Source of the DNA: Leptolyngbyaceae cyanobacterium CSU_1_4
GTDB taxonomy: Bacteria > Cyanobacteriota > Cyanobacteriia > Elainellales > Elainellaceae
DNA length: 46,313 nt
Assembly: GCA_012034615.1 (NCBI GenBank)
Contig: JAAUPA010000007.1
Span: 1-46,313 of the forward strand
Direction of reading: 5' to 3'
This document shows positions 31,492 through 45,184 of this stretch, piece after piece. The notes beneath the pieces are model-generated. The model was not told the DNA's origin. It ran no database searches and saw only the letters and a program-made list of their open reading frames with translations. Positions within the stretch are counted from its first letter, which is position 1; each line of letters starts with the position of its first letter. The position numbers and the translations under genes were made by a program.

Positions 31492-31846
31492 GATCGGATG
31501 TTGGGAGAGTTAGGGTACTTATAGAATAACGGTTGAAGGGCGATCGCGTCTTAAACCTGCTTCATCGACCCGCCAGACCCAAAACAATCTTCAAACAAAA
31601 ACCAATATCAACGAGCTTAATCGCTTAATTGGGTCACGAATGACTCACAGTGGTTAACTTGACTAAATTTACAGATTTGTTTAATGTTTTCAGTCGTGAA
31701 CTTAGCCCCTCGATACGGTTGTTGAGTCCGGCTTGATCGGCAAGAGCCGCTCTGCATGTCTACTCACTTCGGACTGATCCTTGGATTCAACCTTAGTACT
31801 ATGGCTGCCCGACTGCTAAGACCGTCCAACTCAACTGATGGTAACT
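31492..31846. other. Divergent intergenic region (XRE / multi-REC regulator)
   Basis: This 355-bp stretch holds the promoters of two divergent regulators. No gene is seen. No clear -35/-10 pair or operator palindrome was picked out. Confidence 0.4.
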
Positions 31847-33952
31847 ATGCGAATTTTATTGGTCGATGATGACAAATCCTTAATGACCTTGCTGCGGGCT
31901 AAACTGGTGAGTCAGCAGTATGTGGTTGATGTGGCGAGTGATGGAAAAGAAGGCTGGGAACTGACCGAAGCGCTCAACTATGACTTAATTGTGCTAGAGG
32001 TGATGTTACCAAAATTAGATGGCATCAGCTTTTGCCGCCGCCTGCGAGAAAAAAATAGTCAATCTTTGGTGCTGCTGCTGACCGCAAAAGAAACGCTCAA
32101 TGACAAAATTATGGGGCTAGATGCGGGTGCTGATGATTACCTGATTAAACCGATGCCGATGCCCGAATTAGTTGCCCGAATTAAGGCACTTTTGCGACGG
32201 CGAATCGCAACCGTATCTTCGGTACTAGAATGGGGAGCTTTGCGCCTCAATGTTGATAATTGCAAAGTGACTTACGAGAATCAACCCCTGAACCTGACGG
32301 CAAAAGAATATGCGTTGCTTGAACTATTTTTGCGGAATCCTCAGCAGATTTTTAGCCAAGGGGCAATTCTCACTCAGCTTTGGTCATTTGAAGTTGATCC
32401 TCCAGGCGGAGAAACGGTAAGAGCGCATATTAAAAGACTGCGACAAAAACTTAAAACTGTTGGAGCCGAGGATTTAGTTGAAACTGTTTATGGGCTAGGA
32501 TATCGCCTTAACCATATTGTGAAGGAGTTTAAGCCGGGGCGCAGAGTCAACTCGGGTGAGCAGCAAGATTTTTTGAACGTGCAGAACACTCAAGGCGAAG
32601 AACACTTAGTCAATGCTGGCTGTGAGGACACGACTCAAGTGTTAAGTTGCGCTTTGGGAATGGAGCAAGGAACGGATTTTCTACTGAAAAAATCTGCTTT
32701 AACGCGAATTTTAATGATTGATCGAAATCAAGCTTTTATCGATCGCTTTGTGACTGAAGCCGGAACAAAAGATATTCAAACCGCGATCGCCCTGACTCTG
32801 AGTGCCGCTCAAGAATCCATTCAACGGGTACGCCCCGATGGTGTGATCATTGATCTATCTCAGTTTGATCAGACAGAAGGCTTAAAGCTATTGGAAGATT
32901 TAGGACAAGTGTCTCGGTCTTCTATTCCAGTTTTAGTGCTGACTGATCCGTATCAATCGCTAGACCGAGTGGCGATCGCCCGTCGCAAAGGACGCGGTTT
33001 TTTGCAAAAGCCAATTGCGGCGGAGCGAGTATTAGCGGCAATGATTCAAGAGCTCAAGCCGCTGAACCCAAATGAATCTAAAATTATGGTGGTAGACGAT
33101 GATCGAATGGTGTTGCGCCTGTTGCATGTCACCTTAGAACCCTGGGGGCTGCAAGTAACCACCCTCGATAATCCGCTTAACTTCTGGGAGCAGCTAGAAG
33201 CCGTCAAACCAGATTTGCTCATTCTAGATGTTAACCTGCCCGAAATTGACGGCATTGAGTTGTGCCAAACCTTGCGCAACGATTCGCAGTGGGCATGGCT
33301 TCCCATTTTATTTTTGACTGGGCAACAAGATTTTGAGTCGATTCAGAAAATCTTTGCCGCTGGTGCCGATGACTATGTGTCCAAACCTATCATTGCACCT
33401 GAACTCATGACGCGGATTTTGAATCGTTTAGAGCGAACCCGGTTGCTGCGTCGGCAAGTAGAAGTCGATGCGCTAACCAATCTTCCTAATCGATCGCGCG
33501 CTAACCAAGATTTAAATAAGTTTTTGCAGATTGCGAAGCATTCTCAACAGCCCGTTTGTTTGGCGGTGTTGGCGATCGATCACTTAGTCCACATTAATCG
33601 TCAGCATGGGTATCGAGTCGGCGACCAAATGCTGCGCCAACTCGCCCTTACGCTTCAACAAGAACTGCGCCATGCAGATATTGTGGCGCGTTGGGAAGGA
33701 GCGGAATTTGTGGTGGGTATTTATGGAGCAACCCGGCAAGACGGAAGTAAATGGTTGCTCGAAATTTTGAATCTGCTTCCTCCTGTGCCAATCCCGGCTT
33801 CAAATCAAACTTCTGTTCAGATTACATTTAGCGCCGGTGTAGCCCAATATCCCGATGATGGGACAACGGTTCAAGCTCTGTATCAAGCCGCTGAAGCAAT
33901 TTTAGAACAGACAAAACTAGAGGAACATCATCAGTCCAAAAAGCTTTGCTAA
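31847..33952 (+). CDS. Multi-receiver response regulator, RcaC-like (REC-wHTH-REC-REC-GGDEF-like)
   Basis: The 701-residue protein has, in order: REC1 (1-118), an OmpR-type winged helix (about 125-225), a linker, a degenerate REC2 (about 285-395), an intact REC3 (about 408-525; V-V-D-D-D, phospho-site L-I-L-D-V-N-L-P) and a GGDEF-like domain (about 540-695). In REC1 the phospho-acceptor position is Glu51 (L-I-V-L-E-V-M-L-P; codon GAG at 31997-31999). The GGDEF motif is E-G-A-E-F, so cyclase activity is unlikely. The REC-wHTH-multi-REC layout recalls RcaC, the DNA-binding output of chromatic acclimation in Fremyella, though no HPt was seen and the GGDEF-like end differs. ATG 31838 is three codons earlier and equally possible. 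It faces away from the XRE gene and converges on the REC-PAS gene. Confidence 0.85.
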   Translation: MRILLVDDDKSLMTLLRAKLVSQQYVVDVASDGKEGWELTEALNYDLIVLEVMLPKLDGISFCRRLREKNSQSLVLLLTAKETLNDKIMGLDAGADDYLIKPMPMPELVARIKALLRRRIATVSSVLEWGALRLNVDNCKVTYENQPLNLTAKEYALLELFLRNPQQIFSQGAILTQLWSFEVDPPGGETVRAHIKRLRQKLKTVGAEDLVETVYGLGYRLNHIVKEFKPGRRVNSGEQQDFLNVQNTQGEEHLVNAGCEDTTQVLSCALGMEQGTDFLLKKSALTRILMIDRNQAFIDRFVTEAGTKDIQTAIALTLSAAQESIQRVRPDGVIIDLSQFDQTEGLKLLEDLGQVSRSSIPVLVLTDPYQSLDRVAIARRKGRGFLQKPIAAERVLAAMIQELKPLNPNESKIMVVDDDRMVLRLLHVTLEPWGLQVTTLDNPLNFWEQLEAVKPDLLILDVNLPEIDGIELCQTLRNDSQWAWLPILFLTGQQDFESIQKIFAAGADDYVSKPIIAPELMTRILNRLERTRLLRRQVEVDALTNLPNRSRANQDLNKFLQIAKHSQQPVCLAVLAIDHLVHINRQHGYRVGDQMLRQLALTLQQELRHADIVARWEGAEFVVGIYGATRQDGSKWLLEILNLLPPVPIPASNQTSVQITFSAGVAQYPDDGTTVQALYQAAEAILEQTKLEEHHQSKKLC

Positions 33953-33980: not shown

Positions 33981-35141
33981 TTAACTGCCTTCTTTTTGGG
34001 CAGTCAAATCTCGAATAATGCCTTCGTAAAATATCAGTTCACCCAACAAATCTCGAACTCCGCGAACTGTCTCAGAAATCCAAATAATCCGTCCATCTTT
34101 TCGATAAACCTGAGATTCAAAATCAACGATTGAACCCTCTTCCTCAATACGCGCAACAAACTCTTCTCGACGACGGGGTTCTACATATAAATGCTGGGAA
34201 ATATTCTTCAAACCTTGGAGTAAATCTTGCGCTGACTCGTAGCCATACATCTGAACCAACGCTAAATTCACTTTAAGATATTTTCCAGTAGGCGATGTTT
34301 GAAACATGCCATAGATAGCATTTTCAAAAAAATCACGATACAAAGCCTCTGCCTGTCGCCGCTCTTTAATTTCGGTTTGATAGAGAATGTTTTTCTCCTC
34401 TAAACGCTGTTGTAAATCGCGCAGCTTAAGTTGACATTCGATCCGTGCCAGTACTTCTTCGAGTTGAAAGGGCTTGGTCACAAAGTCAGAGCCACCTGCG
34501 TTAAAAGCCCTAACCTTGTCGGCAGAGTCGTTCATCGCGCTCATAAAAATAATTGGAATATTAGCGGTTTTAGCATTTGCCTTAAGACTTTTGCAAATTT
34601 CACAACCATCAATTCTGGGCATAATTAGATCTAGCAAAATCAAATTTAGATGCACTTCGTTGGCTATTTCTAAAGCTTCAACGCCGCTGCTAGCCGTATA
34701 AATTTGATAGCCTTGCTGCATCAATGCCATAGACAGTAGCTTAAGATTAATAGGGGTATCATCTACTAGCAAAATATTGGCTGGATAGACTGTTTGGCTA
34801 AGCTTAAATCCTAAGAGCCAAAAGATTTTTTGTTCAATACTTTTTAGTTCTTGGCGATAGCGTATTTCGCGTAAACGCAGCGTTTGATGGGAAAAAATGA
34901 GGTGTTCTAGCTCTTCGATGGTGGTATTAATTGCAATGGGTTCTAAGTACAAGCTTTCAAGCATGGCATTGAGATCGCAAAACGGATCTGCCTTAATTGC
35001 GGCACCCTTTGCCACTAAAGATTGTAAACGATCTAAGTTTTGGTACAGTAATCTACGGATGTAGTAGACCGTTGTTAAAGTTAAGGATCTTTTTTCTTGA
35101 AATATGGAAATAGGACTGAATTTTGAGTGTGGGTCAGTCAT
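33981..35141 (-). CDS. Response regulator with REC and PAS domains
   Basis: The 386-residue protein has an N-terminal helical region (1-115), a receiver (about 119-240; L-L-V-D-D, L-I-L-L-D-L-I-M-P-R-I-D-G, M-S-A, T-K-P-F), a short coiled coil, and a PAS/PAC domain (about 270-380: Y-R-D-F-F-E-N-A-I-Y-G-M-F-Q-T-S, then W-I-S-E-T-V-R-G-V-R-D). It ends without an enzymatic domain, so it probably passes a signal by protein contact. The ATG overlaps the stop of the upstream hybrid kinase by four bases (ATGA), so the kinase and this protein form a pair. It converges on the RcaC-like regulator with 28 bp between stops. Confidence 0.83.
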   Translation of the reverse strand: MTDPHSKFSPISIFQEKRSLTLTTVYYIRRLLYQNLDRLQSLVAKGAAIKADPFCDLNAMLESLYLEPIAINTTIEELEHLIFSHQTLRLREIRYRQELKSIEQKIFWLLGFKLSQTVYPANILLVDDTPINLKLLSMALMQQGYQIYTASSGVEALEIANEVHLNLILLDLIMPRIDGCEICKSLKANAKTANIPIIFMSAMNDSADKVRAFNAGGSDFVTKPFQLEEVLARIECQLKLRDLQQRLEEKNILYQTEIKERRQAEALYRDFFENAIYGMFQTSPTGKYLKVNLALVQMYGYESAQDLLQGLKNISQHLYVEPRRREEFVARIEEEGSIVDFESQVYRKDGRIIWISETVRGVRDLLGELIFYEGIIRDLTAQKEGS

Positions 35142-37419
35142 AGATGTCCTCCTTTTTGATAACGCCGCCGTTCAGCTTGTAATGCTACCCTGACTTGTTG
35201 ATAGGCAGCGATCGCAGTCGTTGTTTTTTCTGCCGCCCCTGCTAATATTCCCTGCCCTGCCATTCGTTCTAGGTCTTTACAAATTCCTGCTAGCGTCATT
35301 GCTCCCAAGGTGGCACTACAGGTGCCCAGGGTATGAACAATTCGATGGAACGTAATGGAATCTGCTTGGTTTAAAGCACCTTGCATTTTCTCAAAAAACA
35401 CAGGTACATCCACTAAGTATTCATCAATTGTTTCTGTGAGAAAATCTGAGATGCTTGTAGAAGAATTGAAGCTCACCATTTTTTCAATTTCGTGTAGAGC
35501 GTTGGGGTCAAGAACCGGTGAACTCGATCGACTACGACATCGGCTCAGGGTTTGGATGAAGTCTTCAAGGCGGAAAGGCTTGGTTACATAGTCATTCATG
35601 CCTGCTGCCAAACAACGCTCCCGATCGCCCGTCATGGCATTTGCTGTCATGGCAATAATTCGGGGATGAGTGTCGAGTGTCATCTGTCGAATATGTTGCG
35701 TTGCGGTTAACCCATCCATCTCTGGCATGTTCACATCCATGAGCACAACGTCGTACGGTTGCTGGTATTTTTGGTGAGCAATAGCTGCGATCGCTTCGTT
35801 TCCATTACTCACCACATCTGCTTCGTATCCTAAACGGGTTAGCAACATCAACACCATTTTTTGTTAATGGCATGATCTTCAGCCAACAAAATTCGTAGGG
35901 GATGTCTTTGTCCCATCTGAGAGTCAATTTGTAGGGGGACTGATGGCTCAGGGTGAAGAGCGATCGGAGCGACGATCGGTGTTGTGAGGGTGAAATAGAA
36001 GGTGCTACCTTGATCGGGCTGGCTTTCTACCCAAATTCTGCCGCCCATCATTTCGCAGAGTTGTTTGCACAGCGATAATCCTAATCCGGTGCCACCATAT
36101 TGTCGGGTAATGGAAGAATCTACTTGGCTAAAAGATTGGAAGAGGCGATCGCGGCGATGGATAGGGATACCAATGCCCGTGTCAGATACTGCGAACTGGA
36201 GCTCGACGGATTGAGGAATGGTAGTGGCGATCGGGATAACTGATAGTTTTACTTCGCCTGTCGCCGTAAATTTAACCGCGTTGCTCAATAAATTAATCAG
36301 GATTTGTCTAAGCCTAGCACTGTCTCCCATAATGATCTGGGGAAGATTAGGGGCAGTGACAAACCTTAACTCAATTCCCTTTTCTCTGGCAGTAGGAACA
36401 AATAAATTGACGACGGCTTGAATGCACTCTGACAAATTAAAAGACTGCTGATTTAGCTCTAGCTTACCCGCTTCAATTTTAGAAAGATCCAAAATATCAT
36501 TCAGAATGGTTAACAGGGCATCACCACTGGAATGAATGGTGCTAATTAAGTCTTGTTGATGGGGCGCTAACTCAGTATTGCGTAGAAGTTCTGCCATGCC
36601 GATCACAGCACTTAGGGGAGTCCGAATTTCATGACTAATCATGGCGAGAAACTCTTGTTTTGCTAGTTCTGCCTGCTTTTGTTCAGTCATATCTCGAATG
36701 GTATAAACAAATCCCTGAAAATCAGACACCTGGGTTTGGAGAACGGCACACGATACTTCAACCGGAATTTGATGTCCTGATTTTGTTTGACAAAGGGTTT
36801 CAGTGGAACCCAAAGAATCTTCGCTCTCAATGCCCAATCTCTCAATGACATCAAAAATAGATTGCCCAATTAACTCTGAATCGTTGCACTCTAGCAAGGC
36901 TTGTGCTGCTGGATTAACTGTTTTAATTTTGCCTGAACGCTGGGTAACAATCAGGGCATCCGCCATGGAGAAAATAATCTGGTTAACATATTCCTGAGAA
37001 GCAGAAATTTGACTTAACAGTAAATTCGTTTCATTAGAGTTTTGAACGAGTGATTGTTCTAATTCCAGTTGTTTTGTCACATCCTCTAGAAACAAAACAA
37101 GCTGACCTTCTATTGCGTCTTTTTTGCTGGCTCGAATGACAAATAGGTCAAAATATAACACTTGCCCAGGATGGGGCGATCGCGTAATGGCTTTTATTTC
37201 AAACGAAGATTGCTGCCCCTCCAAAACAGCTTGCAGCGCAGTTTCAGAGCCAGTTAACTCGGGAAAGAGATCCTGAATTTCGGGTGCTAAGCTAAGTTCA
37301 GCACAGGATTCGACAAAACGACCTGCCCCAGTAGATACTTCGAGAATGGTCAAATTTTTAGCAAGGATAAAATACTCGATATGGCGAAGCTCGAGAAGAT
37401 GCTTGAGTATGAAGTTCAT
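35138..37419 (-). pseudogene. Hybrid histidine kinase (PAS-HisKA-HATPase-REC-HPt), split by a one-base frameshift
   Basis: The first frame has PAS domains (up to about 260), HisKA with M-I-S-H-E-I-R-T-P-L-S-A, HATPase (N-L-L-S-N-A-V-K-F-T, D-T-G-I-G-I, G-T-G-L-G-L) and the start of a receiver, R-I-L-L-A-E-D-H-A-I-N, before stopping at 35848. The second frame resumes M-V-L-M-L-L-T-R-L-G-Y and completes REC (V-V-L-M-D-V-N-M-P-E-M-D-G, T-K-P-F). It ends with an HPt domain whose His is in R-I-V-H-T-L-G-T-C-S-A-T-L-G-A. One missing base (C, or an A in the A-run, near 35857-35864) explains the split. No membrane helix, so a cytosolic sensor. REC plus HPt means a phosphorelay, likely to a separate receiver such as the REC-PAS partner or the RcaC-like regulator. 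TTG 37431 is an alternative start. Confidence 0.83.
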
Positions 37420-37654
37420 GTGCTTAAGCAATCCCGTGGCAAACGTAGAAGTACAGTAGTTCCAAATGATTGATTAGAGGCATTTAGCTTCCTAGGTTCC
37501 TAAAAGAATTAAAGAGGGTTTGGCTCTCATCAATGACCTATTTTTTGTAAATGGTTGCTAAAAGTTAGTACTTTTGAGAGCTATTCTACATTTAGCTTTA
37601 TCTAATAGTGTAGAAAAGTTTTGTGATTTTCTAGTGACATGTATCACTCCTTAG

Positions 37655-37708: not shown

Positions 37709-38245
37709 CTACAGATGTTTTGCTAACGTTTGAAATAATTGATCAACATGAATTCCAGTTTTGGCTGAAGTGGAATAAATACTAAGAACGCTGAGTGGAT
37801 AATTTTGTGATGCTTTGAGTAATACATCTAACTGCTCAGGGTCAATCAGATCAGATTTATTCAGTGCTATTACAAACACGCCTTGGGGATTAAGGTTGGT
37901 AAACCGTTCAATATGTTCTGCCAAATGCTCAAGTGTTTCTGGGCGGGTCACATCTGCCACCACGATCGCCCCCTTTGCCCCTTGTAGGTAGGTAGGGGCG
38001 ATCGTCTTAAATTTTGTGCTTCCTTCAATATCCCAAATTAAAAGTTGGAAAACTGTTGGAGTTCCTGCTTTTTCAACTTCTATCAATTTTCGAGAAATTT
38101 TAACACCGACCGTCGAAAGATATTGATCGCTGAACTGGCGATCGACAAATCGATTAATCAGGCTGGTTTTACCCACTCCGAAATCACCGATAAGACATAT
38201 TTTCTGGCAATCACAGACATGATGAAGGGGGGTATCCGCGCTCAC
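37709..38245 (-). CDS. Ras/Rab-like small GTPase
   Basis: The 178-residue protein has all five G motifs: P-loop G-D-F-G-V-G-K-T-S (20-28), switch-I Thr45 in S-T-V-G, G3 W-D-I-E-G-S (71-76), N-K-S-D (129-132) and T-S-A-K (159-162). The Rab-like layout (I-W-D-x-x-G-x-x-x-F, then Y-L-Q-G-A-K-G-A-I-V-V-A-D-V-T) is clear. The residue matching Ras Gln61 is Ser76, so intrinsic hydrolysis should be weak and a GAP is likely needed. No C-terminal lipid-modification Cys. GTG 38245 is chosen: it overlaps the stop of the upstream roadblock/OmpA gene (GTGA), indicating translational coupling. That partner contains a roadblock domain, the fold of MglB-type regulators of prokaryotic small GTPases. Confidence 0.85.
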   Translation of the reverse strand: MSADTPLHHVCDCQKICLIGDFGVGKTSLINRFVDRQFSDQYLSTVGVKISRKLIEVEKAGTPTVFQLLIWDIEGSTKFKTIAPTYLQGAKGAIVVADVTRPETLEHLAEHIERFTNLNPQGVFVIALNKSDLIDPEQLDVLLKASQNYPLSVLSIYSTSAKTGIHVDQLFQTLAKHL

Positions 38246-40353
38246 GGGGCTGTCGGCTCTACAATAACACAACGGCTCAACCAGTTGGGTTGAGTTGAGT
38301 CTACTCCGGGTGGCAGATCGGTTGATCCTTGAATCTGTAAACGGCTAGGGTCAATTCCTCGTTCAGTCAAAGCTTGCTTGAGGGCATGAGCGCGATCGAG
38401 GGCAATCTGTTCTGAGCCGGGTTCACGGGTTGGAGAATTGCTGTAGCCAATGATCTTTAACGACTGACGAGGATAGTGATTTAAAAAATTGATGACCTGT
38501 TGAAGCTTATAGCCTCGATCGCTAGGATGTAAGCTAGAGACATCGGGCTCAAAATAAAAGCGAACTTCAATTCGGAGCGGCTGCACTTGAACTGTGCTGA
38601 GGGTAGATAGCACTCCTGGAATTTGGGCAAAAGATTGGGGAATATGGCTAGCCTCGATTAGGGGGCTAATAGTTCCTTCGATCCATACTTTGCCGTGATG
38701 ATATCGAGTTGCGATCGCCACACCCTCAAGACGATTTAGCACACGGGTGACGCGCTGAACTTCAGCCGCCGCTAAAACCGGGTCGGCAGGCACTTCTACT
38801 GCAACAATCTCATTTTTAACCTGCCATTTCGGCAGCGCAACTGCGACCACTTGCTCAGCTTTTTGCCGCAGCAATCCATTAGGAACCCTTCCTGATAAAG
38901 ACAAATAGTCCTGCTTAGCTTCAACCTGCAAGTTATATATCGACAATTGAGGGGCGGCATAAAGAGCAGCAACGGCGGCAGACTCGGCTTGCTGCTGCCT
39001 GAAGCCCAGATACTGAAAAATGCTCCAAGGAACAGCCATTAGCCCTACGATCGCCAATCCGCAGAAGAATAGAGCAGAGGGTTTACCGCCCTTCTCGGCA
39101 GCCGATTCTCCGCTATCTCTCAAAATTTCTAATGCTTTTTGAATGTCCTCTGGAAGGGTTGCCGAATTGCCATCAAAATGATGCAGGAGGGGGTCATACT
39201 GACAAACCAAATGCCTTAAGGTACTCTGCATCATTTTGATAAATGCTGCGGAAGGTTCCCCTTTGACAACGGTTGCTAGATAACAATAGCCCGCCACCTC
39301 TAACACAATTTTTGAGGTGCCATAGTCGATACTGTCTAGCTCCAGCGGCAAGTCTCCCGATTGAGAAATACAATCATTGACAAAGCCTCGAATTGCAGTC
39401 AACATTCCGGCTAACATGTCTGATTCTAAATGTTGTTCAGGATGCTGAACTTCAGCAATGACCAAACCAGACGCTTTATGAATCAAGAAAATTGCCTGAA
39501 CCTGAGACGGCATGACTTCGCGAATGATGAGTTCAGCTTCAGAAACGCCCTGCATTTTTGCCCGAATCTTTCGGGTAATGCCTTCAACACTCAAGGTTTG
39601 TTCTATCTTTTCATTAATGGCATCTAGGGTCGCGCCCATGTACTTCCCGACTGTGTTCCCAATAATAGGATACAGAGCATCCACCATGGCATCTTGTTCA
39701 AGGAAAATTTGTTTCTTAATAGCTTGTCCCATGGTGGGGGCGATCGCATCTGAAAGTTCTTCTGAGTTGAGTGCAACTTGTTGGGCAATGGCTGGAGAAA
39801 TTGATGAAGCTAAGGCGTTCCCCATGCTTTGACGGTTCTGCTGAGTCCGGCTTTGAATAATTTGATCGATGATGGGAGCGATCGCCTCAATCATTTCTTC
39901 TTTGGAATGGGCAACTTTTTGAGCTAATAATTCGCCGATCCGAGGCAGTAGTAATTCACTCAGCTCTTGTGGATCATAAATTTGATGCTCTAATCTGAGC
40001 ACTTGCTGCCGAGAACCTGCAATTAAATCATTTAATATCCTCAGTTCAGCACCCATTAAAAGCTGCTGAAGCTGTTGGAATTGAGTCTCGTTTGTTTCTA
40101 TCGAAGTTTCTAGAGGCGGGGGCGGAAGTGGGAAGTTAATCTGCATGGAAAAGCTTGGCAGTTGTTCAAGATGCAGCCCAACTTCAATAGGAAACTCGTC
40201 TTCTTTTTCGATTTCTTTTGCGATCGTAGGCTCAGGTTCAATAATATCTAAATCAACCAGCAGATTTAAAAACTGATGAAGCTGATCAACTTCATCCTGG
40301 CTAAGATTTTCTTCAGTCGTTAAATTTTCAAGACGATGCATTATTTTACTCAT
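38242..40353 (-). CDS. Roadblock-like / BON / OmpA trans-envelope protein
   Basis: The protein has 703 residues from ATG 40353 (AGGA upstream; GTG 40371 would add six). Numbered from that GTG: a Leu-rich N-terminus; four related helical units of about 23 residues (about 155-246, pattern E-x-M-x-x-A-I-A-P-I-I); and a domain at about 285-395 (V-Q-A-I-F-L-I-H-K-A-S-G-L-V-I-A-E-V) resembling roadblock/LC7. Then come one membrane helix (about 432-455), two BON-like segments (about 475-600) and a C-terminal OmpA domain (about 600-709, with I-I-G-Y-S-N-S and A-L-D-R-A-H-A-L-K-Q-A-L). The roadblock part would be cytoplasmic and the OmpA part would bind peptidoglycan. It overlaps the small GTPase gene, the likely partner, and follows a coiled-coil gene by 108 bp. 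Confidence 0.78.
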   Translation of the reverse strand: MSKIMHRLENLTTEENLSQDEVDQLHQFLNLLVDLDIIEPEPTIAKEIEKEDEFPIEVGLHLEQLPSFSMQINFPLPPPPLETSIETNETQFQQLQQLLMGAELRILNDLIAGSRQQVLRLEHQIYDPQELSELLLPRIGELLAQKVAHSKEEMIEAIAPIIDQIIQSRTQQNRQSMGNALASSISPAIAQQVALNSEELSDAIAPTMGQAIKKQIFLEQDAMVDALYPIIGNTVGKYMGATLDAINEKIEQTLSVEGITRKIRAKMQGVSEAELIIREVMPSQVQAIFLIHKASGLVIAEVQHPEQHLESDMLAGMLTAIRGFVNDCISQSGDLPLELDSIDYGTSKIVLEVAGYCYLATVVKGEPSAAFIKMMQSTLRHLVCQYDPLLHHFDGNSATLPEDIQKALEILRDSGESAAEKGGKPSALFFCGLAIVGLMAVPWSIFQYLGFRQQQAESAAVAALYAAPQLSIYNLQVEAKQDYLSLSGRVPNGLLRQKAEQVVAVALPKWQVKNEIVAVEVPADPVLAAAEVQRVTRVLNRLEGVAIATRYHHGKVWIEGTISPLIEASHIPQSFAQIPGVLSTLSTVQVQPLRIEVRFYFEPDVSSLHPSDRGYKLQQVINFLNHYPRQSLKIIGYSNSPTREPGSEQIALDRAHALKQALTERGIDPSRLQIQGSTDLPPGVDSTQPNWLSRCVIVEPTAP

Positions 40354-40461
40354 TGTCTCGTTCCTAGACACCGCTTGGAATCTTTTAAAGGTACTCCTTT
40401 TTAGTTAAAAGCACCTTCTGTTGGTCATTCCTAGACCGTATCTAGGAACAAGTCAAATGAG

Positions 40462-41100
40462 TTAGCCCTGCGAAGAATGCACGGCTTCTTCTGAATGCTT
40501 CCGAACCGCATACAAAGGAATGTCCTCATACTTTTTGCTGCTGTCAACTTTTTCTTTTAATGCTGGAATAAATTCTGATCCCTTCAGGCGCATTCCAAGG
40601 TGAAACAGCATTTCAGCCAAATCATCCTTAGAAACTTTGTTGTCCCGCAATTGCGAGAAGCAGCGTTCTGTTTCTTCTAAAACCAAGTCTCGCAGCGCAG
40701 CAATATCTTGTTGCAACCCATCTCGCGTCTCTGCTAGTTCAGTGTGCAGCGATGTAGATTGAGTATCCAGTGCTTCATCCAATGTTTGAATATTGTTAGA
40801 AAACTTGCGAGCAAGGCGATCGACCTGTTGACGCAAATCGGTACATTCTTCTTGAGAGGAAAGATGATGTGATTTCAGCTTTTTATCGAGCACTTCAACC
40901 GCAGCCCTTAAATCAGCAGTCATCGCGGCTTTAAACTGATCTAGGCGATCGCGCGTTTCTTGTTGTAGCATTGCCAAATCCGACTCGATTTTGTAGAACC
41001 GATTGTCGTAGTCACGAGTTTGTGCACCAAAAATAATATCTCTAATTTGATCGATGTTGCCGAGCCGTTCACGCACTTCTTCTTTGGTAATGTCGCTCAC
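40462..41100 (-). CDS. Coiled-coil protein of the GTPase locus
   Basis: The 212-residue protein is almost wholly helical and charged. Heptad-like stretches run from about residue 30 to 160 (R-F-Y-K-I-E-S-D-L-A-M-L-Q-Q-E-T-R-D-R-L, and C-T-D-L-R-Q-Q-V-D-R-L-A-R-K-F). A short C-terminal part may be a separate module (D-D-L-A-E-M-L-F-H-L-G-M-R-L-K-G). No signal peptide or membrane segment, so it should be cytosolic. No family was recognised. The start is GTG 41100 with GAGGTG seven bases upstream. It is the first gene of the minus-strand unit with the roadblock/OmpA protein and GTPase, and is divergent from the polysaccharide operon. A scaffold or filament role for the module is a guess. Confidence 0.7.
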   Translation of the reverse strand: MSDITKEEVRERLGNIDQIRDIIFGAQTRDYDNRFYKIESDLAMLQQETRDRLDQFKAAMTADLRAAVEVLDKKLKSHHLSSQEECTDLRQQVDRLARKFSNNIQTLDEALDTQSTSLHTELAETRDGLQQDIAALRDLVLEETERCFSQLRDNKVSKDDLAEMLFHLGMRLKGSEFIPALKEKVDSSKKYEDIPLYAVRKHSEEAVHSSQG

Positions 41101-42460: not shown

Positions 42461-43899
42461 ATGAAGGATCAGGGTGTGATGATTCAACCGGGTTCTAGGA
42501 AAAAGCGGCAACTGCGCTACTTAGTTTTAAGCCTGCTGTTAAATGCAGCAATTTGGGGACTAACCCTGTTTTACCTCAAACAGGCAAAATCAACTTATAC
42601 CAGCGAATGGGCAATTATTTTACCGGGTTCAGCACCTGGAATTGATATTAATTTACCCAATATTGGACAAGCCAGTTCTTCTAGCAGTTCTCCGTTTGGG
42701 GGTGCCACAACCGATCCTAGAGCGAACTATCAATTTATCGCAACGAGTGATGCAGTTTTAACTCAAGCTGCAATGTCTATTCAGACTACTGAGAAAGAGT
42801 TTGGAACTCCGCGAGTTAAGCTAATTGATAATACAACGATTATGACAGTACAAGTTCAAGGGGATAGCCCAGAGCGATCGCGGCAGAAATCTTGGGCGCT
42901 CTATCAAGCTCTAGAAAAGCGGCTGGGGCTGTTGCGCGTTGAAGAAGTTGCTCGCCGAGATGAGGGCATTGAACACACCCTTCAATTTGCCAAAAATAAG
43001 TTGGTAACCGCACAACAGCAGCTTTCTCATTACAAAGTTAATTCAGGACTCAGTTTTCCAGGACAGGTCGATAATCTTTCTGTCAACGTGGAGCAATTAC
43101 GCCGACAGCGGGCAGAAGCTTTAGTACAGGCACAACAATCGACTCGCCGATTGCAGCAACTTGCCGCCAACTTGGGCATTTCATCTCAGCAGGCGGCGGA
43201 GGCATTTTTGCTACAAGCCGACCAACAATTTCAGCAGAATCTTAAAAGCTACAGCGAAACTACAGCCAATTTATCAATCTTACGTTCAAAATGGGGACTT
43301 AATCATCCTGAAGTGGTGCGGGAGCTAGCAACGCAAGAAGCCTCGGGGATGGCGCTCCGCGATCGCAGCACGACGCTTTTAGGCAGAGAGGTGGGGCAAC
43401 GGGCACTAGCGACCCTTAGCCTCGGTAGTGGCGACCAGGGCAGCGGACGCGCCAGTTTGTTCCATGAATTGATTACCATCATGTTGAGCAACGGGGGTTA
43501 GCTGAAGCGGTCAGAACATTAGATCAACAGATTAGTGCATTAGATTATCGTCTCACCGATTTATCTCAGAAACAATCAAAATTAGAAAGCCTTGAACGAG
43601 AAATGCAAACCGCAGAAGCCGTTTTCGCTTCAACCGTTGCCAAACTAGATTTGGGCAAATCTGAAATTTTTTCTGCTTATCCATTAGCCCAATTGGTTGC
43701 AGAACCTAGCTTGCCTCAGGAAGCCAGTGCGCCCAGACGATCGCTCATTTTCCTTGGCTCAACCACAGGTTCAATATTTTGTAGCGCTGGCTTAGGGTTA
43801 CTTTGGTGGCGCAAACGTTTGATAGATTTGATGCAAAAACAAAGAAGTTTGGCGATTGCATCACCGTTATCGAGTCGGGATGAGGAGCAGGCAGCATGA
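42461..43899 (+). pseudogene. Chain-length regulator (Wzz/GumC-like), split by a one-base frameshift
   Basis: From ATG 42461 the frame gives an N-terminal membrane helix (L-V-L-S-L-L-L-N-A-A-I-W-G-L-T-L-F-Y-L, about 20-40) and a Wzz-type periplasmic domain with a long coiled coil. It stops at N-G-G (43501). The other frame continues L-A-E-A-V-R-T-L-D-Q-Q-I-S-A-L-D to the second membrane helix (L-I-F-L-G-S-T-T-G-S-I-F) and stops at 43899. One additional G in the G5 run (43493-43497) restores a protein of about 479 residues. Wzz/GumC proteins set polymer length and link the inner-membrane polymerase to the Wza-type channel; no tyrosine-kinase domain is fused. The stop overlaps the ATG of the next gene. 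Confidence 0.8.
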
Positions 43900-45184
43900 G
43901 TATATCTATTCAGCCCGAAACGTTCCCAGAACGAGTCATTTGGTATACCTTATTGTGGACTTACGGATTCTTTTGGATTGGTGGATTATATGTGGTGGGC
44001 TCAGTAGTAGGATGGATTCTCTTGGCGTATTGGGTAAGACAATTATGGTATCAAACAGAGGCTACGCCCGCAGGCGATCGCATTCGCATTCCTTGGACAA
44101 CTTGGGTTTGGATCATAGGGATGGTGATGATGGAAGTTGCGTTAGTCATAGGTCATTTAGATTTCAATCTAGAAACTTCTTTAATGATTAAATCTTCCAT
44201 TGGTTGGGCAAAGGGCTGGGCGCTACTGGCAGTCTTTCCCCTCATTGGCACCCTCAAAATTCGCCCCCAGTTGCTGTATCGTATTGCCTGCATGATTGGG
44301 TTTCAATCGTTACTGATTTTCCCGTTTTTCTGCTGGCTTATCTACTACATTTACCCGCAACACCCTATGTTTCTCCCTTACAACTGATTGGCGGTCCAGG
44401 TCCGGAGTTCTTTGCACCTAGTTTGTATGAAATTGATCCGAGTAATGGACAGCCTCGCTGGCGATTGTTTACGCCTTGGGCACCTGCCCTCGGTTTTGTG
44501 GGGAATGTTTATTTTGTTTTGGCATCCCAAGAGGGCGATCGCAAATGGCGTTTCCTGGGCATCATGGGCGCTATCTTTATGTGTGTTATTTCCGTATCAC
44601 GACTAGCGTTACTGGCAATTCCCATCGTGTTTATTTTAACAAAAGTATTATCAAGTTTATCTCGTCCTTTCGCCTTGATTAGCATCGGTATTACCAGCGT
44701 TCTCGGCGGTTTGGTTTCACCCGTATTAATCATGGCGTTAGAATCGTTTTCTGACAAATTCCGCTCAGCGCGTGCCGATTCGTCGCGAGTGCGCGAGACA
44801 TTGGGGCGCATTGCCATCGATCGCTGGCAGAGCGAAGCCCCAATTTGGGGACATGGCATTGTCGAACGCGGACCACACGTCGCCGAGTTTATGCCCATTG
44901 GCTCACATCACACTTGGTTTGGGCTACTGTTCGTCAAAGGAATTGTGGGATTTATTGCGTTAGCTATTCCCTTTATCTGGAGCTTGGTTGATTTAGTGAT
45001 CAAATCTCAAACTAGTAAAACAGCCAGAGTCGGGTTAAGCATGATTTGTATTTTATTTCTGTACACGTTTGGTGAAAATTTAGAAATCCTGGCTTATCTA
45101 TACTGGCTGGCACTGATCATGATGGGAATTGCTTTTTCTGAGGATCAAAGAACTCATTTTGAGGTGGCTCTGTATGAAACCTAA
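43896..45184 (+). pseudogene. O-antigen ligase/polymerase-like membrane protein, split by a one-base frameshift
   Basis: The first frame (ATG 43896, overlapping the preceding stop by four bases) encodes several membrane helices to F-Q-S-L-L-I-F, then drifts to a stop at 44387. The other frame supplies V-F-L-L-A-Y-L-L-H-L-P-A-T-P-Y-V-S-P-L, then I-G-G-P-G-P-E-F-F and R-L-F-T-P-W-A-P-A-L-G-F. More helices and a Wzy/WaaL-type loop (G-H-G-I-V-E-R-G near 44855, S-H-H-T-W-F-G) follow, ending at 45184. One more T in the T4 run (44316-44319) joins them to about 429 residues. It is a polytopic inner-membrane protein that should polymerise or ligate lipid-linked glycans, working with the neighbouring Wza- and GumC-like proteins. 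Confidence 0.78.

Follow-up and report, generated by a model that had tools for sequence, protein, structure and literature searches.

The closest described relatives of the locus considered here are the Group 1 Rup GTPase systems, which were defined computationally (Wuichet and Sogaard-Andersen 2014, PMC4316618). In the sections of that paper that concern Group 1, the parts are a coiled-coil protein, a protein in which an unknown domain is followed by a transmembrane (TM) segment and an OmpA domain, a Rup GTPase, and a kinase or cyclic di-GMP enzyme, and cyanobacteria are among the listed hosts. The same sections report that no other prokaryotic proteins are as closely related to the Ras/Rab/Rho group of eukaryotes as Rup GTPases, and describe these as uncoupled from MglB homologues and at that time not characterized experimentally; they also propose a conservon-like signaling complex and suggest, speculatively, that a glutamine is supplied in trans. 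We analyzed a 46,313-nucleotide stretch of DNA from Leptolyngbyaceae cyanobacterium CSU_1_4 (contig JAAUPA010000007.1, positions 1 to 46,313; here, the window), which carries a minus-strand locus with the same four components, including the conserved N-terminal domain on the output enzyme (Table 1). By every feature tested against those sections, the window locus is a member of Group 1 Rup. The domain that they leave unidentified is modeled in the window partner protein as a longin/roadblock fold. Also new relative to them are the assignment of the output-enzyme domain to the PAS fold and its near-exclusive association with the module, the BON domains, the use of cyclases as outputs, the existence of short PAS-like proteins, and the retention of glutamine in 14 of 96 GTPases. 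No experimental study of a Rup system was found in the open-licence literature beyond the 2014 computational paper, and a paper on Leptolyngbya Dgc2 makes no mention of GTPases. A preliminary description of the window, which knew of no characterized system with this architecture, thus stands as regards experiment and not as regards the gene system, described in 2014.

Three other systems invite comparison. Like the window locus, MglA/MglB of Myxococcus and Thermus place a small GTPase gene beside the gene of a roadblock-fold regulator; the window GTPase, however, belongs to another family with a different G3 motif, its regulator spans the membrane and carries periplasmic BON/OmpA parts, and the outputs of window-type modules are two-component or cyclase enzymes. 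The actinobacterial conservons (Cvn/Mfp) are likewise operons of a GTPase, a roadblock protein, a histidine kinase and an extra protein, but their GTPase is of the MglA family, their kinase is a membrane protein, and they have no OmpA/BON protein. The eukaryotic Rab/Rag platforms Mon1-Ccz1, TRAPP and Ragulator also combine a Rab/Ras-like GTPase with a longin/roadblock-fold partner. Here the similarity is one of fold only, no sequence similarity being detected, and the eukaryotic platforms have no envelope-spanning layout.

The three minus-strand open reading frames (ORFs) at 37709-41100 encode a coiled-coil protein, the envelope-spanning partner and a Ras-like GTPase, as the preliminary description had it, and the GTG start of the GTPase gene (38245-38243) overlaps the TGA stop of the partner gene (38244-38242) as GTGA. 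The downstream histidine kinase gene, which also belongs to the conserved module, was left out of this three-gene stretch. Coupling through GTGA was rejected as a universal feature, the genes of relatives being mostly separated by short spacers. The GTPase is a single-domain protein of the Ras superfamily with eukaryote-like G1 to G5 motifs (G1 GDFGVGKTS; G3 WDIEGS, with DxxG as DIEGS; G4 NKSD; G5 SAK). It matches Pfam Ras with an E value of 6e-29, and its best PDB sequence matches are Rab proteins. The G3 motif of the MglA family (TVPGQ in Group 1, GTPGQ in Groups 2 to 5) is not present in it, and a classification with MglA/MglB is not supported; the GTPase is of the Rup type. The catalytic glutamine is missing from its G3, with serine at the Gln61 position. 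Among 96 distinct GTPase sequences of the Rup type seen here, this position holds His in 45, Ser in 35, Gln in 14, and Arg and Cys in one each, and loss of Gln61 was rejected as a universal property. Given this variation, the absence of the glutamine from Group 1, as stated in the publication, is not universal, and supply of glutamine in trans is not needed in every member.

The preliminary description had also proposed a roadblock-like domain in the partner, and this claim found support from structure and none from sequence profiles. A Pfam scan of 26 homologues yielded no match in the suspected domain, a search with PF03259 (Robl_LC7) across the whole genome yielded none, and a PDB sequence-profile search with the domain returned nothing. 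An AlphaFold model of residues 268-412, made with 72 sequences, reached a predicted local distance difference test score (pLDDT) of 81 and a predicted template modeling score of 0.72. Its elements follow the order helix-strand-strand-helix-strand-strand-strand-helix, which contains the strand-strand-helix-strand-strand-strand-helix succession of the longin/roadblock fold. Foldseek matched the model to AP-sigma longins, Mon1-Ccz1, Rag C-terminal domains, Ragulator and Robl/LC7 proteins, with E values of 2e-4 to 4e-3 and, for almost every one of the 50 best matches, a probability of 1.00. A second structural aligner gave Z scores of 12.8 for Sec22b, 11.4 for Ykt6, 11.3 for TRAPP, 10.1 for MglB in its complex with MglA (root mean square deviation 2.6 over 106 residues), 10.0 for LAMTOR and 9.9 for Robl (3kye). 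Scores reach 12.8 in the longin branch and 10.1-10.2 in the roadblock branch, a difference due in part to the longer aligned span of the longins. These matches to longin and roadblock proteins alike place the modeled domain in the longin/roadblock fold group. Conservation is highest in the helix that follows strand 2 (GMLTAIRSF). The corresponding helix of roadblock regulators forms the platform for dimerization and GTPase binding, and by analogy the conserved GMLTAIRSF helix hints at such a role.

The partner runs from a helical N terminus through the longin/roadblock domain, a single TM helix predicted from Kyte-Doolittle hydropathy, a weakly matching BON domain and a second, presumed BON-like domain to an OmpA-like domain, the order given in the preliminary description. 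An in-frame ATG at 40353 is a likelier start than the GTG. Pfam did not detect the second BON domain in the window partner itself, while in close relatives (L077, L082 and L113) two BON stretches and the OmpA domain exceed the Pfam cut-offs. From the position of the TM helix and the biology of OmpA, we infer that the longin domain is cytoplasmic and that the BON and OmpA-like parts lie on the far side of the membrane, in the periplasm. OmpA-like domains bind diaminopimelate (DAP) through an Asp and an Arg. In the window partner the DAP-site Asp is replaced by Asn645 and Arg660 is kept; among 81 sequences the Asp is present in 44, with Tyr, Asn, His and others in the rest, and the Arg is invariant. 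The tie to peptidoglycan that the preliminary description drew for the regulator is therefore doubtful, and binding by the window copy is uncertain, because the residue that usually binds DAP is Asn.

The association of these genes is conserved. In 80 homologous loci, the GTPase gene accompanies the partner homologue in 74, a coiled-coil gene in 71 and the PAS domain in 70, a gene order far above chance expectation; the adjacency that had been anticipated in other genomes thus exists. Of about 40 loci surveyed, most begin with the coiled-coil gene, followed by the partner, the GTPase and a PAS-bearing enzyme, an arrangement that is typical in Nostoc, Calothrix, Microcoleus, Planktothrix, Okeania, Spirulina and others; a scan of genomes confirmed at least 560 relatives. 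In a survey of 292 genomes of the cyanobacterial phylum, the partner was found in 34 (omitting one match that covers the OmpA part alone), the GTPase in 34 (two related types, counted at E < 1e-20, a threshold of our choice) and the PAS domain in 35. Each pair among the three shares 33 genomes (Fisher p ~1e-40, a value that overstates independence because the genomes are related). The window's own family is mostly without the module, and a tree of whole partner proteins places the window copy on a long branch within a Nostocales-rich clade (support 0.96), a placement that would fit transfer as well as loss. Partner-type proteins also occur without a recognizable adjoining GTPase at L161, L171 and L180, and a 573-residue ORF takes the place of the GTPase at L161 and L189.

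The module is also found in Xenococcaceae and, beyond the phylum, in Mesorhizobium sp. WSM1497, where plasmid pWSM1497 carries the same four-gene order. Its coiled-coil protein (25% identity, E 3e-10) keeps the motif IDQIRDIIFGAQxRxYDxRF that is conserved at the N terminus of the coiled-coil proteins; its OmpA family protein is 27% identical over the longin region (E 5e-25), its "Rab family GTPase" is 38% identical (E 2e-30), and its fourth gene encodes a nucleotide cyclase. The Mesorhizobium partner (L201:6698-9763) has about four near-identical periplasmic repeats ahead of the OmpA domain.

The N-terminal domain of the window kinase has no Pfam match, and some of its relatives have weak PAS matches; its model (pLDDT 86) has a clear PAS fold. 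The domain conserves FPExxGxE, an Arg, a Tyr and, after the PAS core, a helix LEQxLxQxxNE; 39 of 41 sequences retain two glutamines of this helix, which, as Q122 and Q126, are nearly invariant in 67. The kinase N terminus with its conserved glutamines fits the published description of an N-terminal region with an "invariant Gln". The domain is borne by histidine kinase-REC-Hpt proteins, by adenylate/guanylate cyclases and by GGDEF proteins (diguanylate cyclases), in up to six copies per genome spread over several loci (six in G277). These additional PAS-bearing enzymes elsewhere in the genome suggest that a single GTPase might act on several outputs. Cyanobacteria also have a second, divergent type of module, in which a short protein of 127-135 residues lies at most a few bases from the GTPase. 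By eye, these short proteins and the N terminus of the Mesorhizobium cyclase have in common an FFLEGLLPL-like stretch and a Gln-bearing helix; the protein of about 130 residues is probably a free-standing effector domain. Its gene lies 1-2 bases past the GTPase gene at L108 (9452-9853), L109 and L111, and overlaps it at L110. In the window, a frameshift in an A run at 35848-35865 splits the kinase from the receiver-Hpt part; relatives are continuous, and L113 encodes an unbroken HisKA-HATPase-REC-Hpt protein.

On the basis of gene order, co-occurrence and predicted folds, we consider it reasonably probable that the window carries a signaling module of the Group 1 Rup kind that works as follows, with the physical contacts, the direction of signal flow, the stimulus and dimerization all being hypothetical. 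The BON/OmpA-like periplasmic part would sense the state of the envelope, and the signal would cross by way of the one TM helix to the cytoplasmic longin/roadblock domain. This domain, probably as a dimer, would bind the GTPase and control its nucleotide state as a guanine nucleotide exchange factor (GEF), a GTPase-activating protein (GAP) or a scaffold. The GTPase would in turn bind the dedicated PAS-fold domain of a single output enzyme or of several, and switch their activity; here the output would be a histidine kinase with receiver and Hpt parts, and elsewhere adenylate/guanylate or diguanylate cyclases. The coiled-coil protein probably organizes the complex. A more specific form of this proposal is put forward tentatively, as possible rather than probable: a Rab-like GTPase is directly regulated by the longin/roadblock domain of an envelope sensor and signals to a PAS effector of kinases and cyclases, making the module a bacterial counterpart of the eukaryotic Rab-longin pairing that converts envelope state into second messenger.

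Several points weigh against this proposal. Longin/roadblock domains can serve as scaffolds without GEF or GAP activity, and the Gln61 position is variable among GTPases of the window type. The partner lacks an adjacent GTPase in a few genomes (L093, L112 and L114), and the PAS domain occurs without the GTPase in G243 and G245. BLASTP found no similarity between the window kinase and the N-terminal part of the Mesorhizobium cyclase, and the link of this part to the module is by position and by the pattern read by eye. A different division of labor would make the PAS domain of the output enzyme the GAP, providing glutamine in trans, with the longin/roadblock protein acting only as a membrane scaffold or GEF. 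The near-invariant glutamine pair of the PAS helix and the absence of Gln61 from most GTPases of this type favor this idea, on which the Group 1 sections of the 2014 paper (PMC4316618) had speculated. However, the 14 GTPases that hold Gln61 have effectors that also keep the helix, and the glutamines sit in a coiled-coil-like signaling helix, where Gln is common; we regard it as unlikely, if the most serious of the alternatives.

The occurrence of the partner gene away from a GTPase gene would also suit mere co-inheritance, in which the envelope protein works independently of the GTPase, for instance as a stand-alone anchor beside a GTPase-kinase pair. But the GTPase is present in 33 of the 34 partner-bearing genomes and the partner likewise in 33 of the 34 with the GTPase, the longin/roadblock fold is a classical small-GTPase platform, and the gene order is preserved across phyla, all of which make separate action improbable. 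Slimmer still are the chances of an MglA/MglB-type polarity switch that places the machinery of polysaccharide secretion or motility. MglB is among the fold matches and a divergent polysaccharide export operon adjoins the module in the window, yet export or chain-length genes stand next to the module in 0 of 80 related loci. Moreover, this is a Rup-type GTPase whose G3 resembles that of Ras and Rab, kinases and cyclases are the conserved outputs, and the system occurs in Mesorhizobium and Xenococcaceae as well. Since the operon is not conserved beside the module, it provides no evidence for the roles in slime secretion, gliding or hormogonium control that the preliminary description had drawn from it.

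Table 1. Features of the Rup module in the window (residue numbers are those of the encoded protein)
Feature	Coordinates	Strand	Basis
Coiled-coil protein, 212 residues, first gene of module	40462..41100	-	ORF; homologues in 71 of 80 loci
Envelope-spanning partner, 709 residues from GTG	38242..40371	-	ORF, Pfam, hydropathy
Predicted longin/roadblock-fold domain, about residues 290-398	39178..39504	-	AlphaFold model, fold matches
Single predicted TM helix, residues 434-452	39016..39072	-	Kyte-Doolittle peak 2.16 at 434
BON domain 1, residues 463-523	38803..38985	-	Pfam E 0.0016, below cut-off; above it in relatives
BON-like domain 2, about residues 528-597	38581..38790	-	Presumed from the double BON stretch of relatives
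OmpA-like domain, residues 606-685	38317..38556	-	PF00691 E 3.5e-9
Rup-type Ras/Rab-like small GTPase, 178 residues	37709..38245	-	ORF, Pfam Ras
Histidine kinase: dedicated PAS, second PAS, HisKA, HATPase	35848..37431	-	Pfam; frame broken at receiver
N-terminal PAS-fold effector domain "HKN"	37006..37419	-	Model; conserved FPExxGxE, R, helix LEQxLxQ
Receiver-Hpt part	35138..35857	-	ORF; one protein with kinase in relatives

In the neighboring polysaccharide operon, two further probable frameshifts lie at 43490-43605 and at about 44200-44400. Both a chain-length-type gene and a Wzy_C gene are broken there into two ORFs, which suggests indel errors in the assembly. A plus-strand gene at 31838-33952, encoding three receiver domains, a winged-helix domain and a GGDEF domain, lies outside the conserved module.

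If the constant partner of Rup GTPases does carry a longin/roadblock domain, then small GTPases of the Ras/Rab-like branch, and not MglA only, pair with this fold. The GTPase, the partner and the PAS domain co-occur almost one to one in genera that are genetically tractable (Nostoc, Calothrix and Planktothrix).

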